In this document: positions 10,538 through 24,303 of the stretch, piece by piece
Layout: each line of letters starts with the position of its first letter
Position numbering within the stretch: the first letter of the stretch is position 1
Assembly (NCBI GenBank): GCA_015232455.1
Contig: JADFZQ010000008.1
Span: forward strand, 1-64,000
Source of the DNA: Desulfamplus sp.
GTDB taxonomy: Bacteria; Desulfobacterota; Desulfobacteria; Desulfobacterales; Desulfobacteraceae
Direction of reading: 5' to 3'
DNA length: 64,000 nucleotides
Notes under the pieces: generated by a model
Told to the model about the DNA's origin: nothing
The model's input: only the letters and a program-made list of their open reading frames with translations
Databases searched by the model: none
Made by a program: the position numbers and the translations under genes

Positions 10538-13060
10538 TTACATCGGCTTATTTGTCTCAAGATTCCAAATACCACACGGACAAGCACCTCTACAGAAACC
10601 GCAGCCAATACACTTTTCAGGGTCTGCTTTGTATTCAAACGAGCCATCTTCTGACTCAAAACGCTCAATAGCACCTTCTGGGCAGACGTGAACGCAGATA
10701 CTGCAATCACGACAACGCCCGCAAGATGCACACTCTGACCCGCACTCTTGAAGTGAGTTGTAGCTTTTTATCATTGGATTGAAATACTCAAGAGATATTC
10801 GGGATTTATCAATCTCTTTGCGTGTATCAACAGGCTTTGGCTCTCTTCCAGCAATTATGCTGTCTATTGCTTCTGCTGTCCGTTTGCCCGCACCAATTGC
10901 ATGAGTTAAAAGACCTGGTCCAACAATATCTCCAATTGCAAAGACAGAAGAATCAGATGTCTGGTTAAACTCGTTTACAGAGACAAATCCATTACAAGTA
11001 GCAATATCTTTGCCAAGAAAATCAGTATCAGGAACATCACCAATTGAGATAACGACAGTGTCAGCCTCAAGAATTTCACCATCATCAAGGATTACGCCAT
11101 TTTGGGTTATCTCTTTTGTGAAACATGGATATTGAAATGTTGCACCAATAGCCTCTGCATCTTCTTTTTCCTTGCCAAAGGCAGCAGGTTTTTGAACATC
11201 AATCAAAGTTATAGTTTCAGCACCCATGCGGTGGGCTTCAGTTGCAACATCACAACCAACATTTCCAGCACCAATTATCACAACTTTTTTAAGAGGTTTT
11301 ATCTGATTATCAACAGCTTGATTTTCAACTTCTTTTACCTGATTATCATCTGTTTTCGTCTGACTATCACCCGCTTTTGTTTGGTTATCTTTTAATCTTA
11401 TTGATTTAACAAAAGCATCAATTTGATTTGATTGAGTCGCCTTTGCTTTAGCCAAGACGTCATTTGCAGAGATTGCAAACTCAATACCCTGAACAGGAAG
11501 CATTCGCGGCTTTTTAGCCCCTGCCGCAACAACTACATAATCAAACTCTTTTTTAATCTTCTGAAAATTTTTAGGCGTAATTTTTTGTTCAAGACGAATA
11601 TCTGAGATAAGTTTTTTTACCCGCTCAAGCTCTGATTGCAAAGTTTGTTGAGGTATTCTTGAATTTGGAATTACAGAAGAAATTTTTCCGCCAATCTCTT
11701 TTGCTTCATCAAATAGAATTGCTTCATGCCCTTTTAATGTAAGATGCCAAGCAGCAGAGATACCGCCAGGTCCTGCACCAATTACAGCGACCCTTTTGCC
11801 GCTTTTTTCAGCAACAGAGGGAAGATCATCAGAAGAGAGCTGGCTATTTTCTCCAGCACGCCCAAGAAGTTTGACATTAACTGGAGTCATATATTGAAGA
11901 TTTTTTGTGCAAGATGCCATACATGGATTTGGGCAGAGATAACCGCATACAGTTGCTGGAAAAGGGGTATATTTAAGCCCCATTGAAGTTGCCTCATCAG
12001 CAAGACCTTGACGGATAAGATGCCATCTTTCTTGAACAGGAATACCTGTTGGACAATTTGCCTGACAAGGAGCTTTATATTTTGCATGTTCCCAAACAGG
12101 AACAAATCTTCTCCAATCGCCTTTGGTTATAAGCGGAACAGTTCCTCTCTCAACCTCTTGGAGATCTCCTATGAGTCCTCCTTTTCCAAGCTCTCTATCC
12201 CAAACATCTTGACGGAATGAGTGCATTGAGAGGCGACCTTTCCCTATAACCTTTTCTTGCGGGGTCTTTGCTCTGATAAGTGTCCACTCTGATCTTTTGG
12301 ACAGCTTATCAAATAGCTCTATTTTATCGATTTTTTGTAGAAAAACCCGCAAGTTTGTGCAAAGCCAATTCCAGTCAATATCAGTTATTGGAATAGTTTT
12401 TGCGTCATTTTGGCTAAATCCAGTTACGTCTCCACGACAAAAGACCTTACCACCAACCATTCCAATCAATGGTCTATAACCTAAAACGCTCTCTTGCGAA
12501 ATTGCTTGTAGCTGCCCATTTTTAGATAGTTGGGAATCTTTAATTGCATTATATCCACATATAACCGCAATTCCACCAGCCATAAACTCCCCAAAGTAGT
12601 CGCCAGCAGAGCCAAGAACCCATAACTCAGGCGGTTCAAATCGGGGATTGCGTTTTGTCATTGTCATGCCTCTGGCACCTATATTGCCGCCAATATAGAC
12701 TTTGCCTTGTGCCCCGCCGTTCATAGCTCCATTTGACGCATTGCCATGAACAGTTATTTCAGCACCAGCATTGAGCCAGCCAATATCATCTGAAGCTGGT
12801 CCCATAACTTCAATTTCAGTATTAGGAAACCCAAGCGAACCAGTTCTCTGACCAGAGTGTCCCTGAATCCGTATCTTTATCTTATCTTTATCAGCTTTCC
12901 AGAGCCTTCCTCCAATGCCGTGCTGACCATAGGCATGAACCTCAATTGCTCTATGTCCCTGCTCAACAGCATTTTGAACCATCTCTTCAAGAACGCGAGA
13001 TGGTATTCTTTTATCACCCTGTCTGCCCGGAATATTTATATAAAATGTATTTGTATTCAT
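10538..13060 (-). CDS. gltD: Glutamate synthase subunit: GXGXG domain fused to GltD-type oxidoreductase and ferredoxin
   Basis: An 840-residue fusion. Residues 1 to about 250 form the GXGXG beta-helix normally found at the C-terminus of large GltB, with motifs such as HAYGQHGIGG and GGNIGARGMT. About 330-410 is the Cys-rich helical domain of GltD (CQANCPTGIP, CGYLCPNPC). An FAD site GAGPGG is near residue 430 and an NAD(P) site GAGNVG near 600. The C-terminus has two 4Fe-4S clusters (CGRCRDCSICVHVCP and CIGCGFCRGACP). It would move electrons from NAD(P)H or ferredoxin to the FMN subunit. Residues about 553-590 are a tandem D-N/S-Q-x-K repeat between the two nucleotide-binding domains, unusual for the family. 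It is third in the operon, 15 bases after the FMN subunit, with a terminator downstream. Confidence 0.88.
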   Translation of the reverse strand: MNTNTFYINIPGRQGDKRIPSRVLEEMVQNAVEQGHRAIEVHAYGQHGIGGRLWKADKDKIKIRIQGHSGQRTGSLGFPNTEIEVMGPASDDIGWLNAGAEITVHGNASNGAMNGGAQGKVYIGGNIGARGMTMTKRNPRFEPPELWVLGSAGDYFGEFMAGGIAVICGYNAIKDSQLSKNGQLQAISQESVLGYRPLIGMVGGKVFCRGDVTGFSQNDAKTIPITDIDWNWLCTNLRVFLQKIDKIELFDKLSKRSEWTLIRAKTPQEKVIGKGRLSMHSFRQDVWDRELGKGGLIGDLQEVERGTVPLITKGDWRRFVPVWEHAKYKAPCQANCPTGIPVQERWHLIRQGLADEATSMGLKYTPFPATVCGYLCPNPCMASCTKNLQYMTPVNVKLLGRAGENSQLSSDDLPSVAEKSGKRVAVIGAGPGGISAAWHLTLKGHEAILFDEAKEIGGKISSVIPNSRIPQQTLQSELERVKKLISDIRLEQKITPKNFQKIKKEFDYVVVAAGAKKPRMLPVQGIEFAISANDVLAKAKATQSNQIDAFVKSIRLKDNQTKAGDSQTKTDDNQVKEVENQAVDNQIKPLKKVVIIGAGNVGCDVATEAHRMGAETITLIDVQKPAAFGKEKEDAEAIGATFQYPCFTKEITQNGVILDDGEILEADTVVISIGDVPDTDFLGKDIATCNGFVSVNEFNQTSDSSVFAIGDIVGPGLLTHAIGAGKRTAEAIDSIIAGREPKPVDTRKEIDKSRISLEYFNPMIKSYNSLQECGSECASCGRCRDCSICVHVCPEGAIERFESEDGSFEYKADPEKCIGCGFCRGACPCGIWNLETNKPM
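11290..11399. repeat. Degenerate in-frame tandem repeat in gltD
   Basis: About 110 bp encode a run of 7-8-residue units resembling DNQTKAG, DSQTKTD and DNQVKEV. They form a polar linker insertion between conserved blocks of the oxidoreductase. Confidence 0.6.
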
Positions 13061-13075
13061 CTAAAAATTTTTCTC

Positions 13076-14728
13076 CTAAACAACATACTTGATATTTAGA
13101 CGCTGTGCCACCTGATAATCATCAATGCCAAGAGCATCAGACATACCAATAGGAAGAGATGTCGAGCGTCCTAACGGGGCTACAATTTTTTTAAGCTCAA
13201 TATCAAATGAGACAAAAAGATCGACAATTCGTTGGGCAACATCTTCTGGATCAAGCCTTCTGTAAAGCCTTGGGTCTTGTGAAGTTATACCTTTTGGACA
13301 GACACCTGTATTACACATATTGCACCTGTCAGTCTCAGTGCCAATACACCCTGCTGCTGCCTGCATCACATATTTTCCAATTTGAACTCCGCTTGCTCCA
13401 AGCATGATAAGTGCTGCTGCATTTGCTGCAAGATTTCCGTTTTTTCCAATACCACCACCTGCAAATATTGGCAGCTCATTTTGTTTTCCAAGTCTAACCA
13501 AATTGAGATAGTTATCTCTTATACAAGATGCAATTGGGTGTCCCATGTGATCCATAGATACTGAATAGGCAGCACCTGTTCCGCCATCTTCTCCGTCAAT
13601 TACAAGACCAGAGGCGTAATCGTTTCTTGTTAAGTTATTTAAAACAGCAAGAGATGTTGAAGATGCTGATATTTTTGGATAAACAGGCACTCTAAAGCCC
13701 CAAGCCATTGACATTGAGATGATCATTTTGGCAACAGACTCTTCAATTGAGTATTGTGTCTGATGAGTTGGAGGACTTGGTAAACTCACGCCTTGCGGCA
13801 CACCTCTGATTGCAGCAATAAGTTTATTGACTTTATGCCACATCAAAAGCCCGCCATCACCAGGTTTTGCACCTTGACCATATTTGATCTCAATAGCACA
13901 AGGATCCTCTTTCATGTATGGGATTGCATGGATAATCTCGTCCCAGCCAAAGTAACCGCTTGCAATCTGCAAGATTACATATTTTAGAAATCTGCTGCGT
14001 AAAAGTCGTGGTGGGCAACCACCTTCACCAGTTGACATTCTTACAGGCATTCCAAGTTGTTCATTTAGGTAGGCAATACCCATCTGAAGCCCTTCCCACA
14101 TTGTAGGAGACAAAGCACCAAATGACATTCCGCCAATAATAAGCGGATAGATCTCACGAACAGGCGGAATCCAGCCGTTATTTCTAAGGCGTGCCATATT
14201 CTCTTTTGGCGGCAAAATTCTTCCAAGCAAGGTTCTTAGCTCAAACTCGTGGCGTCCAGCATCAAGTGCTGGGTCTGTAAGCATTGATATTCTTATAAAC
14301 TTTATTCTATCAAGAAGAGAATTAGTTGAGTTTCTTCTGCCACCGCGTTTTCTTGGCTCTCCATCTTGATTTATGTGGAAACGATACCTGTCTGTCTCTT
14401 GATTTCTATGAGGTGCAATGGCATCATTTGGACATACCATTGAACACATAGCACACCCAATACACGCCTCTTCAATAGTTGTTTTCTGTTTAATTCCGTA
14501 ATAAGTTTCAAATTGAGAAAGCGATCTTTCTTCTGAAGAGTTAAGCAGACTTGAAGGATTTATAGCTGCAATGTTTCTCTTTCTAAAAACTGAAAGTTCA
14601 ATTGCCTGAACAGGACAGACAGCAGTGCATTGTCCGCACAGGGTGCATCTATCTTTTTTCCAATCAATCTGCCACGGCAGATCACTTAGACTTAAAGAGG
14701 AAGGTTTAATGGTTCTGTTTGACGACAT
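13076..14728 (-). CDS. gltB: Glutamate synthase FMN-binding subunit with N-terminal ferredoxin domains
   Basis: A 550-residue protein equivalent to the central/FMN domain of GltB. Two 4Fe-4S motifs precede the barrel (CTLCGQCTAVCP near residue 31 and CIGCAMCSMVCP near 88). The barrel contains STGEGGCPPRLL, KYGQGAKPGDGG and DGEDGGTGAAYSV, and ends with the cluster cysteines of CNMCNTGVCP. It makes glutamate from 2-oxoglutarate and ammonia delivered from the amidotransferase subunit. The start at 14728 has an AGGAG nine bases upstream. The coding region overlaps the 3' end of the amidotransferase gene by 37 bases. The separate-subunit, ferredoxin-bearing form is typical of archaea and many anaerobic bacteria. 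Confidence 0.93.
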   Translation of the reverse strand: MSSNRTIKPSSLSLSDLPWQIDWKKDRCTLCGQCTAVCPVQAIELSVFRKRNIAAINPSSLLNSSEERSLSQFETYYGIKQKTTIEEACIGCAMCSMVCPNDAIAPHRNQETDRYRFHINQDGEPRKRGGRRNSTNSLLDRIKFIRISMLTDPALDAGRHEFELRTLLGRILPPKENMARLRNNGWIPPVREIYPLIIGGMSFGALSPTMWEGLQMGIAYLNEQLGMPVRMSTGEGGCPPRLLRSRFLKYVILQIASGYFGWDEIIHAIPYMKEDPCAIEIKYGQGAKPGDGGLLMWHKVNKLIAAIRGVPQGVSLPSPPTHQTQYSIEESVAKMIISMSMAWGFRVPVYPKISASSTSLAVLNNLTRNDYASGLVIDGEDGGTGAAYSVSMDHMGHPIASCIRDNYLNLVRLGKQNELPIFAGGGIGKNGNLAANAAALIMLGASGVQIGKYVMQAAAGCIGTETDRCNMCNTGVCPKGITSQDPRLYRRLDPEDVAQRIVDLFVSFDIELKKIVAPLGRSTSLPIGMSDALGIDDYQVAQRLNIKYVV

Positions 14729-15822
14729 ATTTTTATCTCCTGCCGATCTGGTCCTACAATAACTGTATCAAGGTGCATGGGTTGAATATCTTTGCTCTTA
14801 TCTCTGTCTGGAATAACAGCATCAAGTCCACATATTTCAGAAGAGAATGCAAACATTCCAGCTCTTCCACCAACAACACCGGGTCTTAGTTTTTTTCTAT
14901 CCTGAGCCATAAACATTGTGTTGTCAGGAAGAGTGCCAATAACGCAATTTGGTCCGTCAATAATCAACTGTCTGCATGATTTCTTAAGGTGTTTTAGAAA
15001 AACAGCATCAGGGTGAGATTCAAGGTCTTTATCTTGAAGAGGAGTCATAACATGTTTGTAAGAATCTAATCCAAGCCCCAAACCTGACATTGTATAGTGG
15101 AGAATATGTGTAAAGACCTCAGAATCAGATTGGTAGCCTGTGTATCCCGGAAAACCTCTGCTTGAAAGAAAATCTCTGATTGGAATAAATGCTGTATTTT
15201 CACCATTGGTCATGGTTGAGTAACCTTTGATAAAAAAAGGATGGCAAGCGTAGAGGTTAATAGCGTAATTTGTGTTCTGTCTTCCTTGCACCATAATTGT
15301 TCTTGCCTTTAAATCTTTTCTATCTAAACCGAGATAACGTCCAATTTCAAGAGGGTCTCCAAGCTCTTTAATGATTATTGTGTCTGGCCAGAAGGAAAAG
15401 ACAATCATATCCTCTTTCTCTTCACCCATTTCACGAATCTTAAGGCGGGTCATCATAAGTCTTGTTGTAAGCTCTTTTTGATCAAGACTATCCCATGATT
15501 CAGGATATTCATAGGCACGCAACAGATAAAGACCTCTTTTGGGGATACCTTCCATTTTTATCTTTGGAACTTTAATACTCATCTTGTATTTGGTCATAAA
15601 ACCTTGTTCCATCATAAAAAAGTCAAGTTTCCTTATTCCCTCTTCAGTGAAGATGCCAGAAAGGATTGGGGCATCTTTCATCTCTTCAAAAGGACCACCG
15701 AGATCGCGAAGCAAGATACCAACACCAGAGCCATCATGCCCCTCTTTCATAACATCAAGAGCTTTTATGGCTTCCATTGGAGATACAGGTTCTTTGCTTG
15801 TAAGTGCAAACAGACGGCACAT
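14692..15822 (-). CDS. Glutamate synthase glutamine amidotransferase subunit (class II)
   Basis: A protein of 376 residues equivalent to the N-terminal amidase domain of GltB. The start is set at ATG 15822, because it gives Met-Cys-Arg-Leu-Phe, exposing the catalytic Cys after Met removal, and has AAGGAG eight bases upstream. A longer frame from 15849 would bury this Cys. Motifs include EGHDGSGVG (near residue 28) and TMTNGENTAF, which bind glutamine in class II amidotransferases. It hydrolyses glutamine to glutamate and ammonia for the FMN subunit. First gene of the three-gene operon 15822-10538. Confidence 0.92.
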   Translation of the reverse strand: MCRLFALTSKEPVSPMEAIKALDVMKEGHDGSGVGILLRDLGGPFEEMKDAPILSGIFTEEGIRKLDFFMMEQGFMTKYKMSIKVPKIKMEGIPKRGLYLLRAYEYPESWDSLDQKELTTRLMMTRLKIREMGEEKEDMIVFSFWPDTIIIKELGDPLEIGRYLGLDRKDLKARTIMVQGRQNTNYAINLYACHPFFIKGYSTMTNGENTAFIPIRDFLSSRGFPGYTGYQSDSEVFTHILHYTMSGLGLGLDSYKHVMTPLQDKDLESHPDAVFLKHLKKSCRQLIIDGPNCVIGTLPDNTMFMAQDRKKLRPGVVGGRAGMFAFSSEICGLDAVIPDRDKSKDIQPMHLDTVIVGPDRQEIKICRQTEPLNLPL

Positions 15823-15915
15823 TATTCTTTTCTCCTTAGTTATTTTCAATTGTTTGGGCGATGTAATTTGTTTAAATATAATCTCTTAAGCAAACATATA
15901 AAGCTGGTTACTATA

Positions 15916-17319: not shown

Positions 17320-18570
17320 CTACTTAACCATTGGCACTGTAAGACTTCCATCCATAAGGAATAAAATATCTGCATTTCCGCCTTTTTGTTTAATTGCCGC
17401 ATCTAAAGCATTTTGCAGTGAATTAAATGGCTTTATGAATAGCTTTTCTAAAGTATCTGGCTCAATATCTGTTACACCCCACATCTCTGCCCAAAGACCT
17501 ATTTCAGCCATTTTTGCAGCTTTGTGATACCCAAGTTTATAGCCCTTTTCAATAGTATCAAGAACCTCTTTTGGAGAATCACAGCTACTTAAAAGATCAG
17601 CAAATGCTTTGCCGCCGATTCCGCAGCGGCACTTTGCAACAAGAATCAAAATACCACCCTCTTTAAGGGCAAGTTTTCCATTATCAATACCCTTTTGAGC
17701 CTGATAAAGATCAATATCTGCTGGAAATTTTACTACAGATACAACAATATCAGCTTTCTTCTTAATAGAGACTGCAAAGACCTCATTTGCTCTATCAATT
17801 GCTGCTTCAAAAGATGCGTGAATATCTCCAGCAGTAACTGCATAGATTTTGTGGTTCTTATCAAGCACCGTCATTATTGAGAAAATCTCTTTTTCAACAG
17901 TTTTTAAAGCATCAATCATATCTTCATGCACAGGATTACCTTTAAGAGCAAGGGCAGAGGCTTGCGGCATTAAAGCCAATTTATGATTCTGCTCAATAGT
18001 CTTGTAGCCAGCAATTCCGGGAAGAAAAGATTTTCTACCGCCTGTGTAGCCAGCAAAGTAGTGAGGTTCAACAGAGCCAATAATTATAATTTTGTGGGCA
18101 TTAACTCCAGCTTTATGCACATACATTTCTGTGCCGTTTGACGATTTTCCAAGAAAAATCATCTCTTCATCTTTTTTAGCATCATGGACAATTATTTTAT
18201 CTTTGATATTTTCATAATGTGAACCAAATATCTGGATATATTCCTCTTCTGTAGGACCTCTATGTGCACCTGTTGCAATTATAAAATTTACTTTGATTCC
18301 TCTGTTTTTTATATCGTCCCAAATAACATCCATAACTGTTTTAGTTGGAGTTGGTCGTGTTGCGTCATTTACAATTATAAGCAAATTTCTTGCATCAGAT
18401 AGAAATTGAGCTAACGTCCCACTCTTACATGGGTTGTTCATTGCCTGCTCGATAACTTCAACTGGATTGCCAATTGCCACATCATTTGCCTCAAGAAAAC
18501 TTGTGCTTATAGCATCGTTTATTTCAGCAGTTAGCTCTCCATCTTTTCCATAAGGTAAACTTATTTTCAT
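17320..18570 (-). CDS. larA: Nickel-dependent lactate racemase (LarA/DUF2088 family)
   Basis: A 416-residue LarA homologue. The N-terminal domain has NDATRPTPT and ATGAHRGPT (His near residue 98). The block EPHYFAGYTGGRKSFLPG gives His near 168 and Lys near 178, matching the catalytic His and the Lys that binds the nickel-pincer cofactor in characterised LarA. The enzyme interconverts L- and D-lactate or a related 2-hydroxy acid. It is the last gene of an operon with an FAD oxidase and an Fe-S protein, which fits conversion of one lactate isomer to the one the dehydrogenase uses. Cofactor synthesis genes larB, larC and larE are not in the window. The family includes enzymes for other 2-hydroxy acids, so lactate is the likeliest but not proven substrate. 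Confidence 0.87.
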   Translation of the reverse strand: MKISLPYGKDGELTAEINDAISTSFLEANDVAIGNPVEVIEQAMNNPCKSGTLAQFLSDARNLLIIVNDATRPTPTKTVMDVIWDDIKNRGIKVNFIIATGAHRGPTEEEYIQIFGSHYENIKDKIIVHDAKKDEEMIFLGKSSNGTEMYVHKAGVNAHKIIIIGSVEPHYFAGYTGGRKSFLPGIAGYKTIEQNHKLALMPQASALALKGNPVHEDMIDALKTVEKEIFSIMTVLDKNHKIYAVTAGDIHASFEAAIDRANEVFAVSIKKKADIVVSVVKFPADIDLYQAQKGIDNGKLALKEGGILILVAKCRCGIGGKAFADLLSSCDSPKEVLDTIEKGYKLGYHKAAKMAEIGLWAEMWGVTDIEPDTLEKLFIKPFNSLQNALDAAIKQKGGNADILFLMDGSLTVPMVK

Positions 18571-18718: not shown

Positions 18719-19738
18719 CTAATCTGTAGAATACTTTGTATTTCTTATCTGCTGATTCATAGACCTTTCATCAACAAGTGGACCAAGTGTTTTTATCTTC
18801 TCCATAAAGTTATCAATAGCTTTTTGAAAGCCTGCTTTATCTCCGTGGGCAATATTGACAAGTTCGATCCTGTCAGGATTAATGTCAAGAGAGCTAAGTA
18901 TTGGTTTAAGTGCCTTTACACGCTTTGCAGATGTTAAATTTCCATCATTTTCGCACTCTCCTTCAGGACAACAGGCAACTAAAACTCCCCAAGCGTTTTC
19001 AAGAAATGGGTCAAGCATGAGAGGCTTTGTGAGCCTTCCACCACACATGGTTATCAAAATTTTGTATTCAGGATCAGGCTTTTCATAGATCGGAATATAT
19101 GATGACGATTCAGTATCGTAAGATGATGATTGCAAATCAGGATAATACGACCAATTACAACCAAATACGATAACCTTTGCCTCTTGCTTCTGGAGAAAAT
19201 CAGTTATTAACCGATTCAAATATACTCTATCTGTGCCATAAGTATGAGTTGAAGAGACACTCTGGTTTGGACAAAGAGAGGTGCATATTCCGCAGCTTTG
19301 GCACATTATTGAGTCTGTAACAATATGTCCATCTTTGAAATAGCGTGCATCGTGTGGGCAGGCTCTAACGCATGTAAGGCAATTTCCACAGCCACTTCCA
19401 GTTACTGAGGTAGTTCCAGTAGTATCAAACTCAGTATTTACAAAATCAGCTCTTGCATCAGCAAAGATTTCAGTTAAAGGCACACCGCTTGAACAAGCAG
19501 CAACACACTGTTGACAGTTGAAGCAGGAAAATATTTTATCTGCCATATATTTTGATGGTTCAAGCTGACACGAGAGTAATCCATAAAGCATAATAAGTTT
19601 TGCCCGTGGTGCATCAGTCTCCCAACGGGTATGCTTAAATACAGGGCAATGTTCATAGCAATATCCACAACGGATACATTTATCAAGAGTGTTTCTCCAC
19701 TTTAAAAGATGATTTAGTTCAAATTTTCTTTTTTGCAT
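18719..19738 (-). CDS. Fe-S protein with MvhD/FlpD-type C-terminal domain, partner of the lactate dehydrogenase
   Basis: A 339-residue protein. The first half has two Cys-rich blocks of the GlcF/HdrD kind (CIRCGYCYEHCP and CFNCQQCVAACS), then two more ferredoxin motifs (CGNCLTCVRACP and CQSCGICTSLCP). The last ~150 residues resemble the hydrogenase iron-sulfur subunit MvhD/FlpD: VIVFGCNW, LITMCGGRL and VACCPEGECENDGN, ending near KTLGP. That domain normally passes electrons to heterodisulfide reductase HdrA in flavin-based bifurcation complexes. The fusion suggests lactate electrons may enter an Hdr-like complex rather than the quinone pool. A 'SSSYDTESSSY' insertion interrupts the MvhD-like part. 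The gene starts one base after the dehydrogenase stop. Fe-S assignments are firm; the electron route is inference. Confidence 0.8.
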   Translation of the reverse strand: MQKRKFELNHLLKWRNTLDKCIRCGYCYEHCPVFKHTRWETDAPRAKLIMLYGLLSCQLEPSKYMADKIFSCFNCQQCVAACSSGVPLTEIFADARADFVNTEFDTTGTTSVTGSGCGNCLTCVRACPHDARYFKDGHIVTDSIMCQSCGICTSLCPNQSVSSTHTYGTDRVYLNRLITDFLQKQEAKVIVFGCNWSYYPDLQSSSYDTESSSYIPIYEKPDPEYKILITMCGGRLTKPLMLDPFLENAWGVLVACCPEGECENDGNLTSAKRVKALKPILSSLDINPDRIELVNIAHGDKAGFQKAIDNFMEKIKTLGPLVDERSMNQQIRNTKYSTD

Positions 19739-19739
19739 T

Positions 19740-21173
19740 TTATGACTCCACTATGTATCTCAAATCAGTTGCAGTAACCCAATCATCAGGAGCATCCATG
19801 AGTTTGCCCGGATTTAATATGTTATTGGGATCAAACGCTTTTTTGATAGCTCTCATAAGTTCAAGCGAATCTGCTTTTTCTGCTTTAAATGCCGCTGCCT
19901 TTGAAAGACCAATACCATGTTCAGCAGAAGTTGTGCCATTAACCGAACGAACATATTCATAAATTTCAGCTACAGCTCTTCTTGCTGATTCCCACTGATC
20001 CTGATGGCTTGTCTCCATCAAAATTTTTGTGTGCATACACCCAGAACCACAGTGCCCATAGGCAGTCATAATAATATTGTTCCGTTTGGCTACATCATGT
20101 ATTGTTCTTGCCATTTCAGCCATCTTTGAATATGGAACTGCCATATCATCAGCCAAAGATGTGCTTGCATGAAGTTCACTAAATTTTGATAGAGCTGGAA
20201 AGAGTTTTTTCCGTCCCATAAAGATTTTTGCCCGCTCTTTTGCATCATAACTGCTTTGCAAACCTGTGCCACCGTGTTTTTCACACATATTTTTCATTGT
20301 GTTAATCTCATAATCAACCGCCTCTTTAACCATTCCATCAGCTTCATAGAGTAACACAGCTTCAACATCTGGCAGCCCTAAATTCATGGTTTTATTTACG
20401 GCTTTGATTGCTACGTTATCAACAAGCTCAAGCATTGAAGGAATTATTCCACCAGCCATAATATCAGCTATTGCATGACCCGCATCTTCAAGCCTGTCAA
20501 AATTTGCCATGCCAAGACATCTAAACTTTGGAATTGGGACAAACTTTAAAGTTGCCTCAACCACAACCCCAAGAGTTCCTTCTGAACCAACAATCAACTT
20601 GTGGATTTGATAACCTGTTGCCTCAACTCTTGTTCTTGTTCCAAGTGATATAAGTTTGCCACCGGGCAAAACAACTTTCATTCCAAGAACAGAGTCTCTT
20701 GTTGCTCCATACTTTACCGACCTTACCCCGCTTGCATTGTTCCCTATTTCACCACCAATTGTAGCAGTTCTGCTTGAAGCCGGCGTTGGTGGATAGAATA
20801 CTCCGTAAGGTTTTAGGGCTAAGTTTAGGTCATCATCAACAACACCCGGCTCAACTCTGCAATAGACATCTGGCGGATTTATCTCAAGTATTCTGTTCAT
20901 ACCTTTCATGTCAAGAGTTATGCCGCCTTGAGACGGAACAGTCTGTCCGCACATTCCAGAACCAGAGCCTCTTGTTATAACTGGAATTTTCTCTTCATCT
21001 GCAAATTTCATCAATCCTTGAACCTGCTCTACATTTTCAGGTCTTACAATTACCCAAGGCATTGCTCTATGGACAGAAGCATCTGACCCGTAAATAAAGA
21101 GGTCTGCTGGATCATCTTTGACATTATTTTCCCCAACTATCTCTTTAAGTTTGGGGATATTTATGGTTTTCAT
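19740..21173 (-). CDS. FAD-linked oxidase, GlcD/D-lactate dehydrogenase type
   Basis: A 477-residue FAD_binding_4 plus FAD-oxidase C-terminal protein. PCMH-fold FAD motifs are visible: VITRGSGSGMCGQ near residue 60, GEIGNNASGVRS near 150 and YQIHKLIVGSEGTLG near 190. The C-terminal domain contains GHCGSGCMHTKI, AEHGIGLSKA and FDPNNILNPGK. It oxidises D-lactate or glycolate, passing electrons to the Fe-S partner encoded one base downstream. Together with larA the operon could use both lactate enantiomers. No signal peptide or membrane segment is seen. Substrate choice between D-lactate and glycolate rests on the racemase neighbour. Confidence 0.88.
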   Translation of the reverse strand: MKTINIPKLKEIVGENNVKDDPADLFIYGSDASVHRAMPWVIVRPENVEQVQGLMKFADEEKIPVITRGSGSGMCGQTVPSQGGITLDMKGMNRILEINPPDVYCRVEPGVVDDDLNLALKPYGVFYPPTPASSRTATIGGEIGNNASGVRSVKYGATRDSVLGMKVVLPGGKLISLGTRTRVEATGYQIHKLIVGSEGTLGVVVEATLKFVPIPKFRCLGMANFDRLEDAGHAIADIMAGGIIPSMLELVDNVAIKAVNKTMNLGLPDVEAVLLYEADGMVKEAVDYEINTMKNMCEKHGGTGLQSSYDAKERAKIFMGRKKLFPALSKFSELHASTSLADDMAVPYSKMAEMARTIHDVAKRNNIIMTAYGHCGSGCMHTKILMETSHQDQWESARRAVAEIYEYVRSVNGTTSAEHGIGLSKAAAFKAEKADSLELMRAIKKAFDPNNILNPGKLMDAPDDWVTATDLRYIVES

Positions 21174-21301: not shown

Positions 21302-21721
21302 TCAAAAAAATTCCAACTTTGTAAATTGCTCAACAGCATAATCAGGAAAGCGTTTCTGAAGTTTCTTATCAAAAGTGATAAGTCTTTCCGCCTTGTTACT
21401 TTTGGACTGACCAATAATGATGAGATCAGCAAAATCTCCTTTCAACTTATACTGTTCTACTGCGTTTAGTATCACAAAAAAATCAGGAAAAATGAATATA
21501 TTGACAGATAGAATATTCTCCAAATACATACTTATTTCATCACGGCTACAGTTATAAGCCGACTCAAGCACCCAAACGGTTTCAATCAAGACTTCTGACA
21601 AAATAATGATTTTCATTTTATGTTTTTCAGCTAATAGCATGGTTTCTTGAACAGATTTGGTTTGTTCAAGGTCATCTTCTATCAATAAGCGAACTAATAT
21701 ATTAGTATCCAATGAGATCAT
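21302..21721 (-). CDS. PIN-domain toxin, VapC-like
   Basis: A 139-residue PIN ribonuclease. It starts MISLDTNILVRLL with the first catalytic Asp, followed by a conserved SEVLIETVWVLE (Glu) and GDFADLIIIGQSK (Asp) and a final TFDKKLQ. These acidic residues coordinate metal for RNA cleavage. The start overlaps the antitoxin stop by 4 bases, as usual for toxin-antitoxin pairs. It probably cleaves a tRNA or rRNA target when freed from the antitoxin. Confidence 0.85.
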   Translation of the reverse strand: MISLDTNILVRLLIEDDLEQTKSVQETMLLAEKHKMKIIILSEVLIETVWVLESAYNCSRDEISMYLENILSVNIFIFPDFFVILNAVEQYKLKGDFADLIIIGQSKSNKAERLITFDKKLQKRFPDYAVEQFTKLEFF

Positions 21722-22020
21722 TTAATAACTCTTTCATATCGTCTTTTTTTTATAACCTCTTCCATCTCTTCAATAGATACAGCTTTTGTTTGTGCTTTGT
21801 GCTTTAACATTCCAAAAATTGATTGCACAGATTTCTTACAATCTAATCTTAAATCTTTTACCTCTTTAAATAATTGAAGGCGTTCAAAATATTCTACTTC
21901 AAGCATGACAATTGCTCTCTTTTTTTCTCCTTCAATTCGTATTGGTTCATGAATGTTAGTTAATTCATCTATCAGATAGTTAATATTGTTTTTTACATAA
22001 TCTACAGTTATTGTCCTCAT
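21718..22020 (-). CDS. Phd/YefM-type antitoxin
   Basis: A 100-residue protein with the Phd/YefM N-terminal fold: MRTITVDYVKNNINYLIDEL, then 'HEPIRIEGEKKRAIVMLEVEYFE', a beta-strand and helix pattern used for operator DNA binding. The variable C-terminal helix, rich in Lys/Arg/Glu, would wrap around the toxin. It comes first in the operon, with an AAGGAG-like site before ATG 22020, and overlaps the toxin gene by 4 bases. Confidence 0.75.
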   Translation of the reverse strand: MRTITVDYVKNNINYLIDELTNIHEPIRIEGEKKRAIVMLEVEYFERLQLFKEVKDLRLDCKKSVQSIFGMLKHKAQTKAVSIEEMEEVIKKRRYERVIK

Positions 22021-22233: not shown

Positions 22234-24303
22234 ATGAGTAATATAAAACATAAAATTATTTTTCAGCCGCATAACAGAGAGATTTTAGTTGAAGATGGAG
22301 AAAACCTTATCCGTGCAGCTATGGAAGCTGGCGTTCATATAAACGCATCATGCGGTGGTGAAGGTGTGTGCGGCAAATGCAGAGTTATCTTAGAGCAAGG
22401 TCAAGTTGAAGGTGGAACAGAAAAGCTCTCAACTGAAGATAAAGAAAAAGGATACATACTTGCATGTAAGTCCAAAGTAAAATCAAACATTGTAGTAAGA
22501 ATACCTGTTGAGTCAAATGTTGATGCAAGTGTATTGAATATTGCCACTTCACCAAGACATACAGCAAAAATTAAAGAATTTAAGTTAGAAAGTATCAAAG
22601 ATCAAGGGCTTCTTATTCCACCAGTTGTAAAAAGATATTTAGAGCTTCCAGCTCCAACTGCTCAAGACAATCTTGCTGATGTAACAAGGCTTCTAAATTT
22701 CCTTAAAATACAACATGACGAACATCGCCTTGTTGTTGATCTTGATGTTATAAGGCAAATTCCCGATATTTTACGTGAGGGTGATTTTAAGGTTACTGCA
22801 ACAATTATCAGACCAGTTAGAGAAGATGGAAAAAATCAAATTACACTAATTGAGCCCGGGAACACCACAAACCGAAATTTTGCAATTGCAATGGATATTG
22901 GCACAACAACCATTTATGGTGAGCTTCTTGATCTAAACACTGGCGAGGTGCTTTCAAGCTATGGAGATTTTAACGGACAGATAAGTTATGGCGAAGATGT
23001 TATATCAAGAATTATCTTTGCTGAAAAAAATGGTGGTCTTGAAATTTTGCAAAAAAAGGTGGTTGAAACCATTAATCATGTTATTGAACGAATCATAAAA
23101 AAAGCAACCATCAATAAATCGGAGATTGATAAAATTGATAAATCAGATGCCAGCATCTCTGAAAATAACAAAGCTAATAACAGATCAAGTATAAATAATG
23201 GTTCAGGTATAAAAAAAGGTGAGATTTCAACTATAACCCTTGCTGGCAACTCTACTATGACCCAACTCCTGCTTGGTATAAATCCTCGATATATCCGCCG
23301 TGCCCCTTACGTTCCAGCATCTATTTTATATCCACCTTTTAAAGCATCTGAAATTGGTCTTGATTTAGGAAGACACACTATCGCTCTTTTATACCCAGGT
23401 GTATCAAGCTATGTAGGTGGTGATATTGTTGCTGGAGTTATGGGAAGCGGACTCTATCAAAGCGACAAGCTAACACTTTTTATGGATATTGGAACAAATG
23501 CAGAGATTGTTATTGGTAATAAAGATTGGATGGCTTGCACTGCCTGTTCTGCTGGTCCTGCTTTTGAAGGTGGAGGAATCACCTTTGGAATGAGAGCTTC
23601 AAAAGGTGCTATTGAGGATTTTTCAATTGATCCAATAACCTTTGAACCAATGATTATGACAAAGGGTAATGTCAGACCAAAGGGGATTTGCGGTTCTGGT
23701 TTGATTAATATTGTTGCCCTACTCTTTGAACATGGAGTTATTAATAGCCGCGGAAAATTTAACCAAGAGCTTAAAACAGATCGTATAAGGCAAAGAGATG
23801 GAATTTGGGAATATGTGCTTGTATGGCAGAATGCAACACAAATTGACAGAGACATAACAATTTCAGAGCCAGATATTGACAATCTTATTCGTGCAAAAGG
23901 GGCAATGTATAGCGGTGCTATGACTCTGCTTGAAGAGGTTGGTATGCACATAAACGACATTGAGCAGATTATTCTTGCCGGCGGTTTTGGCAGCTACGTT
24001 GATCTTGAGAAAGCTATGATTATTGGGCTTTTGCCTGAAATTGATCCAGAAAAGGTTATATATCTTGGCAATGGCTCACTTCTCGGTGCAAAGATGAGTT
24101 CATACACAAATCTTTTTAGGAGAAATGTTGGTGAAGTTATAAAGATGATGACAAACTTTGAACTTGCCGAAACCCCTTCATATATGGATCACTATGTTAG
24201 TGCTTTGTTTTTGCCCCACACTGAGCTAAATTACTTTCCAAGACTTAAAGCAAGAATGGAGGCAAGGAAGCCTAAAACAATTCAAGAAATTGCAGTAGAT
24301 TAA
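22234..24303 (+). CDS. Reductive activator of corrinoid proteins (2Fe-2S ferredoxin plus ASKHA/DUF4445)
   Basis: A 689-residue RACo-type protein. The N-terminal plant-type ferredoxin has cysteines in ASCGGEGVCGKC (residues about 39-50) and ILACKS (about 71-76). A linker follows, then an ASKHA ATPase with phosphate-binding motifs AMDIGTTTIYGELL near residue 220 and LFMDIGTNAEIVIG near 412, a CSAGPAFEGGGI block and a late ILAGGFGSYVDLEKA. RACo uses ATP hydrolysis to reduce Co(II) corrinoid back to Co(I). Its likely partner is the corrinoid protein encoded at 31143, although unrelated genes lie between. A low-complexity Ser/Asn/Lys/Asp insertion (residues about 290-330) splits the ASKHA region. 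AAAGGAAAAAAG precedes the ATG. Confidence 0.9.
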   Translation: MSNIKHKIIFQPHNREILVEDGENLIRAAMEAGVHINASCGGEGVCGKCRVILEQGQVEGGTEKLSTEDKEKGYILACKSKVKSNIVVRIPVESNVDASVLNIATSPRHTAKIKEFKLESIKDQGLLIPPVVKRYLELPAPTAQDNLADVTRLLNFLKIQHDEHRLVVDLDVIRQIPDILREGDFKVTATIIRPVREDGKNQITLIEPGNTTNRNFAIAMDIGTTTIYGELLDLNTGEVLSSYGDFNGQISYGEDVISRIIFAEKNGGLEILQKKVVETINHVIERIIKKATINKSEIDKIDKSDASISENNKANNRSSINNGSGIKKGEISTITLAGNSTMTQLLLGINPRYIRRAPYVPASILYPPFKASEIGLDLGRHTIALLYPGVSSYVGGDIVAGVMGSGLYQSDKLTLFMDIGTNAEIVIGNKDWMACTACSAGPAFEGGGITFGMRASKGAIEDFSIDPITFEPMIMTKGNVRPKGICGSGLINIVALLFEHGVINSRGKFNQELKTDRIRQRDGIWEYVLVWQNATQIDRDITISEPDIDNLIRAKGAMYSGAMTLLEEVGMHINDIEQIILAGGFGSYVDLEKAMIIGLLPEIDPEKVIYLGNGSLLGAKMSSYTNLFRRNVGEVIKMMTNFELAETPSYMDHYVSALFLPHTELNYFPRLKARMEARKPKTIQEIAVD

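Follow-up and report, generated by a model that had tools for sequence, protein, structure and literature searches.

What would an adaptor domain of heterodisulfide reductase (Hdr) complexes do on the iron–sulfur (Fe-S) partner of a 2-hydroxy acid dehydrogenase? The question is raised by a locus of Desulfamplus sp. (Desulfobacteraceae; assembly GCA_015232455.1), which lies in the first 64,000 nucleotides of contig JADFZQ010000008.1; this whole stretch is referred to below as the window. Three genes on its reverse strand, here called the cassette, encode a GlcD-type FAD dehydrogenase, an Fe-S protein that ends in an MvhD-type domain (the Fe-S/MvhD protein) and a LarA-family racemase. A first-pass annotation of the window had described the Fe-S protein as the GlcF-like partner of a lactate dehydrogenase, and had suggested that lactate electrons may be channelled to an Hdr-type complex, possibly by electron confurcation. 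We favour, at a probability of about 0.45, a NAD-free malate/oxaloacetate system that would connect to HdrA-type hubs through an MvhD domain of its own. The cassette comprises the following features.

19740..21173, reverse strand: GlcD-type FAD dehydrogenase, 477 aa (window open reading frame list)
18719..19738, reverse strand: Fe-S relay with MvhD adaptor, 339 aa (open reading frame list, profile matches, AlphaFold model)
18782..19174, reverse strand: FlpD/MvhD domain of the relay, with putative [2Fe-2S] ligands Cys194, Cys232, Cys257 and Cys262 (PF02662 match)
17320..18570, reverse strand: LarA-family nickel-pincer racemase, 416 aa (Lar_N and LarA_C, malate-racemase residue pattern)

A complete MvhD domain on the Fe-S subunit

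The GlcD and Fe-S/MvhD genes are separated by 1 nt. In the Fe-S/MvhD protein, Pfam detects an N-terminal 2[4Fe-4S] dicluster like that of GlcF (Fer4_8 at residues 18–86, 58.8 bits), a second Fer4 pair at about residues 113–159 and, at residues 189–319, an FlpD domain (PF02662) that covers the full profile, positions 1–123, with 90.7 bits (9e-26; cut-off 22.3). Four [4Fe-4S] motifs fall within the first 160 residues. Structure prediction recovered the same three parts in an AlphaFold model (pLDDT 81.8, pTM 0.75), in which residues 7–107 resemble HdrC (Z 9.9 to 8rwn_C), residues from about 109 to 168 a 2[4Fe-4S] ferredoxin (Z up to 9.6 to ferredoxin-type chains), and residues from about 184 to 328 MvhD (Z 16.4–16.7 to 7bkb_F, 5odh_D, 8rvu_F and 5odc_D, with rmsd 2.5–3.3 over 122–130 residues). 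The MvhD-type domain proposed by the first-pass annotation is therefore real and complete.

Cys194, Cys232, Cys257 and Cys262 are invariant in 34/34 homologues and at 99/99 loci (83 distinct), and they align with the four cysteines common to MvhD 5odc_D/8rvu_F and to the FlpD that is fused to HdrA in the genome itself. This conservation suggests that they are the ligands of a [2Fe-2S] cluster. The concern that the domain might lack cluster cysteines, or belong to another family, is thus answered by these counts and by the PF02662 match. The cysteines of the four [4Fe-4S] sites are also invariant in the 34 homologues, save for one homologue that is truncated at its N-terminus. A fifth position, in a CxxC motif and occupied by Cys or Sec (selenocysteine) in several other FlpDs, is Ser at 96/99 loci. 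Loci L110–L122 were excluded from residue counts as repeats of genomes among L068–L081; L123–L189 partly repeat L082–L100, hence the separate figures for distinct sequences (99 loci/83 distinct for the Fe-S protein, 85/71 for LarA, 89/76 for GlcD). Distinct LarAs were counted over residues 21–200, and matches covering <85% of the query were dropped.

Two other readings of the FlpD domain were rejected. A chance match is contradicted by the profile score, the cysteine conservation among homologues and the predicted fold; a degraded pseudodomain is contradicted by the four invariant cysteines, the loss being confined to the variable CxxC cysteine.

The description of the protein as GlcF-like holds for its N-terminal dicluster and fails for the rest. 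Because no CCG domain (PF02754) of the GlcF type was found in it by Pfam at E 0.001, it is better named an HdrC–ferredoxin–MvhD relay. Its best NCBIfam match is the HdrA2 model NF040770, at 114.3 bits against a cut-off of 1100; we rejected this match as proof of kind, as it reflects only a common ferredoxin plus MvhD tail.

GlcD matches the Pfam families FAD_binding_4 (140.6 bits) and FAD-oxidase_C (195.2 bits), and scores 401.7 bits with the glcD model TIGR00387, below the cut-off of 567.9. Its nearest solved structures are glycolate oxidase 9qgz and the lactate dehydrogenase LctD (7qh2_C). The protein has the motif GHCGSGCMHTK and not the GHxGDGNxH of characterized glycolate/lactate members; GHCGxGxxHTK occurs in 87/89 cassette GlcDs, with no match in the other two, whereas the three characterized relatives aligned to it (9qgz, 7qh2_C and 8jdc) have GHxGDGNxH or AHxGDGNxH. 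We consider it the probable D-malate (2-hydroxy acid) dehydrogenase subunit, with a variant motif.

The cassette is conserved in Desulfobacteraceae

A search of 192 genomes of the class at E 1e-60 found the Fe-S/MvhD protein in 33/35 genomes of the family and in 0/157 others, the family size of 35 assuming that the listings are ordered by kinship. In a smaller sample, the full-length protein was present in 30/35 family genomes; the five misses were G025, which is 97% complete, and G002, G006, G007 and G019, which are 52–81% complete, G019 having a fragment. The nearest relatives are from Desulfamplus, followed by other Desulfobacteraceae (Desulfobacterium, Desulfocicer, Desulfobacter, Desulfobacula, Desulfotignum and Desulfospira). 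Among the best 80 of 177 matches, occurrence outside the family is sporadic, in Acidobacteria, Syntrophorhabdaceae, Spirochaetia, Dehalococcoidia, Thermoplasmatales and Woesearchaeota.

The order GlcD > Fe-S/MvhD > LarA on a single strand is kept at 31/31 loci holding all three genes; at the other three of the 34 loci examined (L086, L092 and L094) the Fe-S gene is at a contig end. Distances co-vary over 46 loci (r = 0.91 for GlcD and the Fe-S protein, 0.79 for GlcD and LarA), which also tracks species history and was not used as evidence.

Relatives place the dehydrogenase among Hdr, Mvh and MetFV genes

MvhD-type adaptors pass electrons from a dehydrogenase to HdrA, as described in parts of PMC12350162 and PMC6019823. 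The first-pass annotation had proposed a search for hdrA elsewhere in the genome, and hdrA-type genes proved plentiful. There is a MetVF–HdrA cluster on contig C33, the same as that found at L073, L074 and L078, and there are several other HdrA loci; on contigs C22 and C11, CCG-bearing open reading frames lie just upstream of HdrA. The genome encodes nine FlpD domains, including that of the Fe-S/MvhD protein.

At L177 (Thermoplasmatales), GlcD and the Fe-S/MvhD protein are encoded in one gene run with HdrA, an HdrB-like protein and VhuG-/VhuA-like hydrogenase subunits, together with two free-standing MvhDs, Hyd-type NAD(P) subunits, a further HdrA and an HdrA–GltD fusion; the NCBIfam Hdr, Vhu and Hyd labels are given on scores below the cut-offs, and the MvhD labels on BLAST. 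The order in L175–L177 and L186 is HdrA, HdrB-like, VhuG/VhuA-like, MvhD, GlcD, Fe-S/MvhD, MvhD, Hyd-type NAD(P) subunits, HdrA, HdrA, as seen by tblastn for L175, L176 and L186; the HdrB and family labels were verified for L177 alone. Parts of this run are present at L179, L184 and L185, and L180 has GlcD, Fe-S/MvhD, MvhD and HydB. Two further loci read HdrA–MvhD–GlcD–GlcF/TfrB-like–Fe-S/MvhD–MvhG–MvhA (L188) and, without GlcD, HdrA–MvhD–MvhG–Fe-S/MvhD–MvhA (L189).

In bacteria, a recurrent neighbour is methylene-tetrahydrofolate (THF) reductase. The gene metV is directly downstream in 9/17 bacterial loci outside Desulfobacteraceae (9/19 with L188 and L189), namely L161–L164, L166, L168, L170, L172 and L183; the 17 are L160–L170, L172, L174, L181–L183 and L187, with L182 ending within LarA. 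Within Desulfobacteraceae, L077, L079 and L080 have the order MaeB (malic enzyme)–PFOR–MetV–MetF–GlcD–Fe-S/MvhD–LarA, the malic enzyme and PFOR families having been checked in L077, and at L073, L074 and L078 a MetV–MetF–HdrA–HdrA/FlpD cluster adjoins the cassette in the opposite direction. Hdr-type coupling, one half of what the first-pass annotation had proposed, is thus supported by the gene context of relatives, the archaeal GlcD and Fe-S/MvhD genes lying among HdrA, HdrB and Mvh genes; the other half, lactate, was not supported.

Some other Hdr- and Etf-related genes were noted. Three of the genome's remaining FlpD/MvhD proteins (L002, L004 and L005, on contigs C77, C11 and C25) contain a TGA codon in frame that is taken to encode Sec; in two it falls at the third position of the CxxC, and in one at a conserved cluster cysteine. 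Sec-containing MvhD has already been described for D. autotrophicum, in part of PMC2702500. On contig C56 (L103, 3525–9287), an Hdr/Qmo-like cluster encodes a divergent FlpD that has lost several conserved cysteines, two HdrA-like proteins, a QmoC/HdrC-like dicluster protein and a protein with one CCG match. EtfA, mostly with EtfB, is encoded within ~10 kb of the cassette at L089, L091, L092 and L096–L099, and some of these loci also carry a membrane Fe-S oxidoreductase.

LarA points to malate as the probable substrate

The specificity of LarA-family racemases is associated with four residues, which in the relevant part of PMC11770544 are given as usually F,F,W,E/Q for lactate, as Y,F,H/Q,T for 2-hydroxyglutarate and, at the last two positions, as H/Q and K for malate. 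The pocket of the window LarA is Y,F,H,K, the H and K standing where LarA1 has W358 and T359. This pattern is present in 85/85 cassette LarAs (71 distinct), and catalytic and cofactor residues are preserved. Among seven NCBIfam models, the best match is the malate racemase LarAH6 (NF052593, 389.5 bits); the lactate racemase model NF033504 gives 298.5 bits, below its cut-off of 460. The nearest solved structure is Mar2 (6d6z). The nickel-pincer maturation gene larC is present in the genome and in 22/23 family genomes, with none in G021.

A better candidate for lactate than the cassette is found elsewhere in the same genome. L109 encodes a canonical GlcD, with the motif GHAGDGNLH, and a CCG-type GlcF with two CCG domains, along with a TRAP transporter and a LUD–CCG protein. 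Given the malate-racemase residues of LarA, this separate locus and the absence of three malate dehydrogenase families from 11/17 cassette genomes (see below), we believe that lactate is probably the wrong substrate.

A possible gap in malate oxidation

No member of PF02866, the family of NAD-dependent malate/lactate dehydrogenases, was found in the genome that contains the window. Across the class, it occurs in 141/157 genomes outside the family and in 11/35 inside (two weak), the cassette and PF02866 draws being taken, from repeated handles, as the same 192 genomes. It is missing from 23/33 cassette-bearing family genomes, G024 among them, and is present in G025, which is without the cassette. 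A Fisher p of ~1e-11 for this contrast was rejected as a probability, as the cassette genomes of the sample form one family. Mqo was found in 0/17 family genomes and Ldh_2 in 3/23, and 11/17 cassette genomes tested for PF02866, Mqo and Ldh_2 have none of the three. According to Table 2 of PMC4969296, an independent source, D. autotrophicum lacks mdh and D. multivorans has it.

Of three Desulfobacter-type genomes, G015 and G023 combine the cassette with a lack of all three families, whereas G028 keeps PF02866. Desulfobacter oxidizes acetate through the tricarboxylic acid (TCA) cycle, so G015 and G023 must have another source of oxaloacetate, for which the cassette is a good candidate.

A proposed route for malate electrons

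We propose that GlcD and the Fe-S/MvhD protein together make up a soluble 2-hydroxy acid dehydrogenase that works without NAD, malate/oxaloacetate being its likeliest pair. LarA, as a nickel-pincer malate racemase, would interconvert L-malate, the product of fumarase, and D-malate, and GlcD would oxidize D-malate at its FAD. The electrons would next travel along four [4Fe-4S] clusters and reach a [2Fe-2S] cluster in the MvhD domain at the C-terminus. This domain may dock on a flavoprotein of the HdrA type and so take the role that a separate MvhD has with Mvh, Fdh, Elp or MetFV. We infer the substrate, the direction, the docking on HdrA and the confurcation; the reverse direction, from oxaloacetate to malate, may also be used.

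The malate/oxaloacetate, lactate/pyruvate and methyl-/methylene-THF couples all lie at about −0.17 to −0.20 V (malate ∼−0.17 V; the MetFV donor roughly −0.2 V), which is too positive for NAD or ferredoxin. Malate cannot reduce ferredoxin, and we therefore propose that HdrA would either merge malate electrons with low-potential ones from reduced ferredoxin in order to reduce NAD (confurcation), or trade them with MetFV, which is similarly poised. Both confurcation and a shared MetFV port agree with the repeated linkage to metVF.

Several observations weigh against a malate/oxaloacetate system that feeds HdrA. No hdrA lies within the Desulfobacteraceae cassette itself, MetVF–HdrA is beside it only at L073, L074 and L078, and at L076 HdrA lies close to the edge of the piece; no HdrA was found in the 21-kb piece of L180. 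EtfAB, encoded within ~10 kb at several loci, is an alternative acceptor. The archaeal loci, L188, L189, L162 and L163 are without LarA. The window LarA falls below the NCBIfam equivalog cut-off for malate racemase (389.5 vs 500); the Y and F at the start of its pocket pattern are those of 2-hydroxyglutarate racemases. Replacement of malate dehydrogenase by the cassette is not strict, because PF02866 is kept in 10/33 cassette genomes of the family (eight strong and two weak, G028 included) and in 6/18 outside it, whose completeness is not given; G171, in 480 contigs, is without both. The family contrast in PF02866 is confounded by common descent and may reflect one evolutionary event. Malate can also leave via malic enzyme, according to parts of PMC5109826 and PMC2702500, and in the latter, genes for all enzymes needed in malate use are said to have been detected.

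Alternative explanations

Two alternatives concern the substrate. The cassette might encode a dehydrogenase and racemase for 2-hydroxyglutarate or another dicarboxylic 2-hydroxy acid, for example in the recycling of 2-hydroxyglutarate, with the same electron route. We regard this as unlikely. The FAD family of GlcD does include D-2-hydroxyglutarate dehydrogenases (6lpn, 139.5 bits), CoA-transferase and carboxyltransferase genes lie downstream at L077, L079 and L080, and two of the four LarA pocket residues (Y and F) fit the 2-hydroxyglutarate pattern in the part of PMC11770544 cited above; nevertheless the fourth residue is K, which is tied to malate, in 85/85 LarAs, and the missing malate dehydrogenases would be left unexplained. 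Alternatively, the original proposal may be retained, with a lactate dehydrogenase and lactate racemase feeding Hdr, perhaps by confurcation after the manner of LctBCD/Etf of Acetobacterium woodii. The MvhD domain is as real under this explanation, the potential of lactate nearly equals that of malate, and LctD is the second-best solved relative of GlcD, with 262.9 bits vs 263.3 for the best. However, the F,F,W,E/Q pattern is missing from all 85 LarAs and the lactate racemase score is below its cut-off (298.5 vs 460), GlcD/GlcF, TRAP and LUD–CCG are encoded at a separate lactate-type locus of the genome, where the canonical GHAGDGNLH is found, and the cassette occurs in Desulfobacter, whose members are acetate specialists; we consider lactate quite unlikely.

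The other two keep malate and change the acceptor. A malate-type dehydrogenase could deliver electrons to menaquinone or Etf, with MvhD serving only as a relay to a membrane Hdr-like complex (Qmo/Hme) and not to a bifurcating HdrA. Brandis-Heep, in a 1983 study that PMC12137691 cites, reportedly found a non-NAD, membrane-associated malate dehydrogenase activity in Desulfobacter postgatei, and both the Qmo/Hdr-like cluster on contig C56 and EtfAB near several loci would suit such a route, yet the cassette has neither a membrane subunit nor a CCG domain, and the archaeal pair sits with HdrA and MvhA-like genes, so that we judge it unlikely. A direct partnership with MetFV, in which malate/oxaloacetate and methyl-/methylene-THF would swap electrons via a common MvhD domain without NAD or ferredoxin, would account for MetV directly downstream in 9/17 bacterial loci outside the family and for MetVF directly upstream at L077, L079 and L080, the two couples being similar in potential. 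Against this, the Desulfobacter-type pieces L083–L085 are without MetVF or AcsV, such species using the TCA cycle, and the MetVF cluster at L073, L074 and L078 has its own HdrA and FlpD; this explanation seems to us very unlikely.

Comparison with known systems

The C-terminal domain is like MvhD, VhuD and ElpC of HdrABC complexes (5odc, 7bkb and 8rvu) in domain family, predicted fold and four conserved cysteines. Unlike these, it is fused C-terminally to an HdrC-like/ferredoxin protein, and its partner is a 2-hydroxy acid flavoenzyme rather than a hydrogenase, formate dehydrogenase or F420H2 oxidase. In HdrA2 of Methanosarcina, an HdrA with a C-terminal MvhD, the ferredoxin and MvhD tail resembles residues 109–321 of the cassette protein, which however is without the HdrA FAD domain and scores far below the model cut-off of 1100.

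The cassette resembles GlcD–GlcF dehydrogenases in the family of its FAD subunit and in the N-terminal dicluster of the partner, but that partner is without the two CCG domains, the genome's canonical pair being at L109. The bifurcating lactate dehydrogenase/Etf complex LctBCD (7qh2) is alike in its GlcD-type FAD subunit and in a 2-hydroxy acid oxidation of low driving force; the cassette differs in having an Fe-S/MvhD relay instead of Etf, and the window open reading frame list has no Etf gene directly adjoining it. The MetFV–MvhD–HdrABC complex of Moorella likewise presents a donor to HdrA via MvhD, as described in part of PMC6085437; here the donor would instead be a 2-hydroxy acid dehydrogenase, with metVF co-localized in part of the loci. 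In Bathyarchaeia and Korarchaeia, GlcD is paired with an Hdr-like partner, as proposed for lactate in PMC10667645; those pairs differ in having an HdrD-type partner and a proposed Fpo link, and the relevant passage of that paper mentions neither an MvhD fusion nor LarA. Finally, the malate racemase LarAH6/Mar2 (6d6z) has the pocket H and K in common with the window LarA, which differs in its second pocket residue (F, where Mar2 has K) and in falling below the NCBIfam cut-off.

In a partial search of the literature on malate racemase and on GlcD with MvhD/Hdr, we found no description of the cassette. We rate it as a putative new donor arm for MvhD/HdrA hubs.

Neighbouring genes

One further gene of note lies upstream of the cassette.

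22234..24303, forward strand: AcsV/RACo-type corrinoid activator (NF040756, 656.7 bits against a cut-off of 800; Pfam RACo_C_ter)

An AcsV-like gene is near the cassette at 18/34 loci, the window included, and is probably context and not part of the enzyme. Between it and the GlcD gene, at 21302–22020 of the window, is a PIN-domain toxin/Phd-YefM antitoxin pair; the close relative L068, whose Fe-S protein is 96% identical, has kept the antitoxin and is missing the toxin stretch. At 10538–15849 there is a split glutamate-synthase-type set, made up of a GXGXG/pyridine-nucleotide reductase with ferredoxin, an Fe-S glutamate synthase core and a 385-aa protein that has no Pfam or NCBIfam match at E 1e-5.

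Implications

If the proposed route is correct, a 2-hydroxy acid dehydrogenase joins hydrogenase, formate dehydrogenase, F420H2 oxidase and MetFV as donors that reach HdrA via MvhD, and a nickel-pincer racemase is placed in central metabolism rather than in lactate scavenging. For Desulfobacteraceae as a whole we suggest, more tentatively, that the malate step may be a nickel-dependent detour, in which malate dehydrogenase would act as an electron-confurcating Hdr donor, yielding NADH, or as a MetFV exchanger. The claim is open to direct test in cultured species such as those of Desulfobacterium or Desulfobacter. For marine sulfate reducers, many of which are without the malate dehydrogenase families tested here, the cassette offers candidate genes for the malate step, and it could close a gap in the central metabolism of the Desulfobacteraceae.

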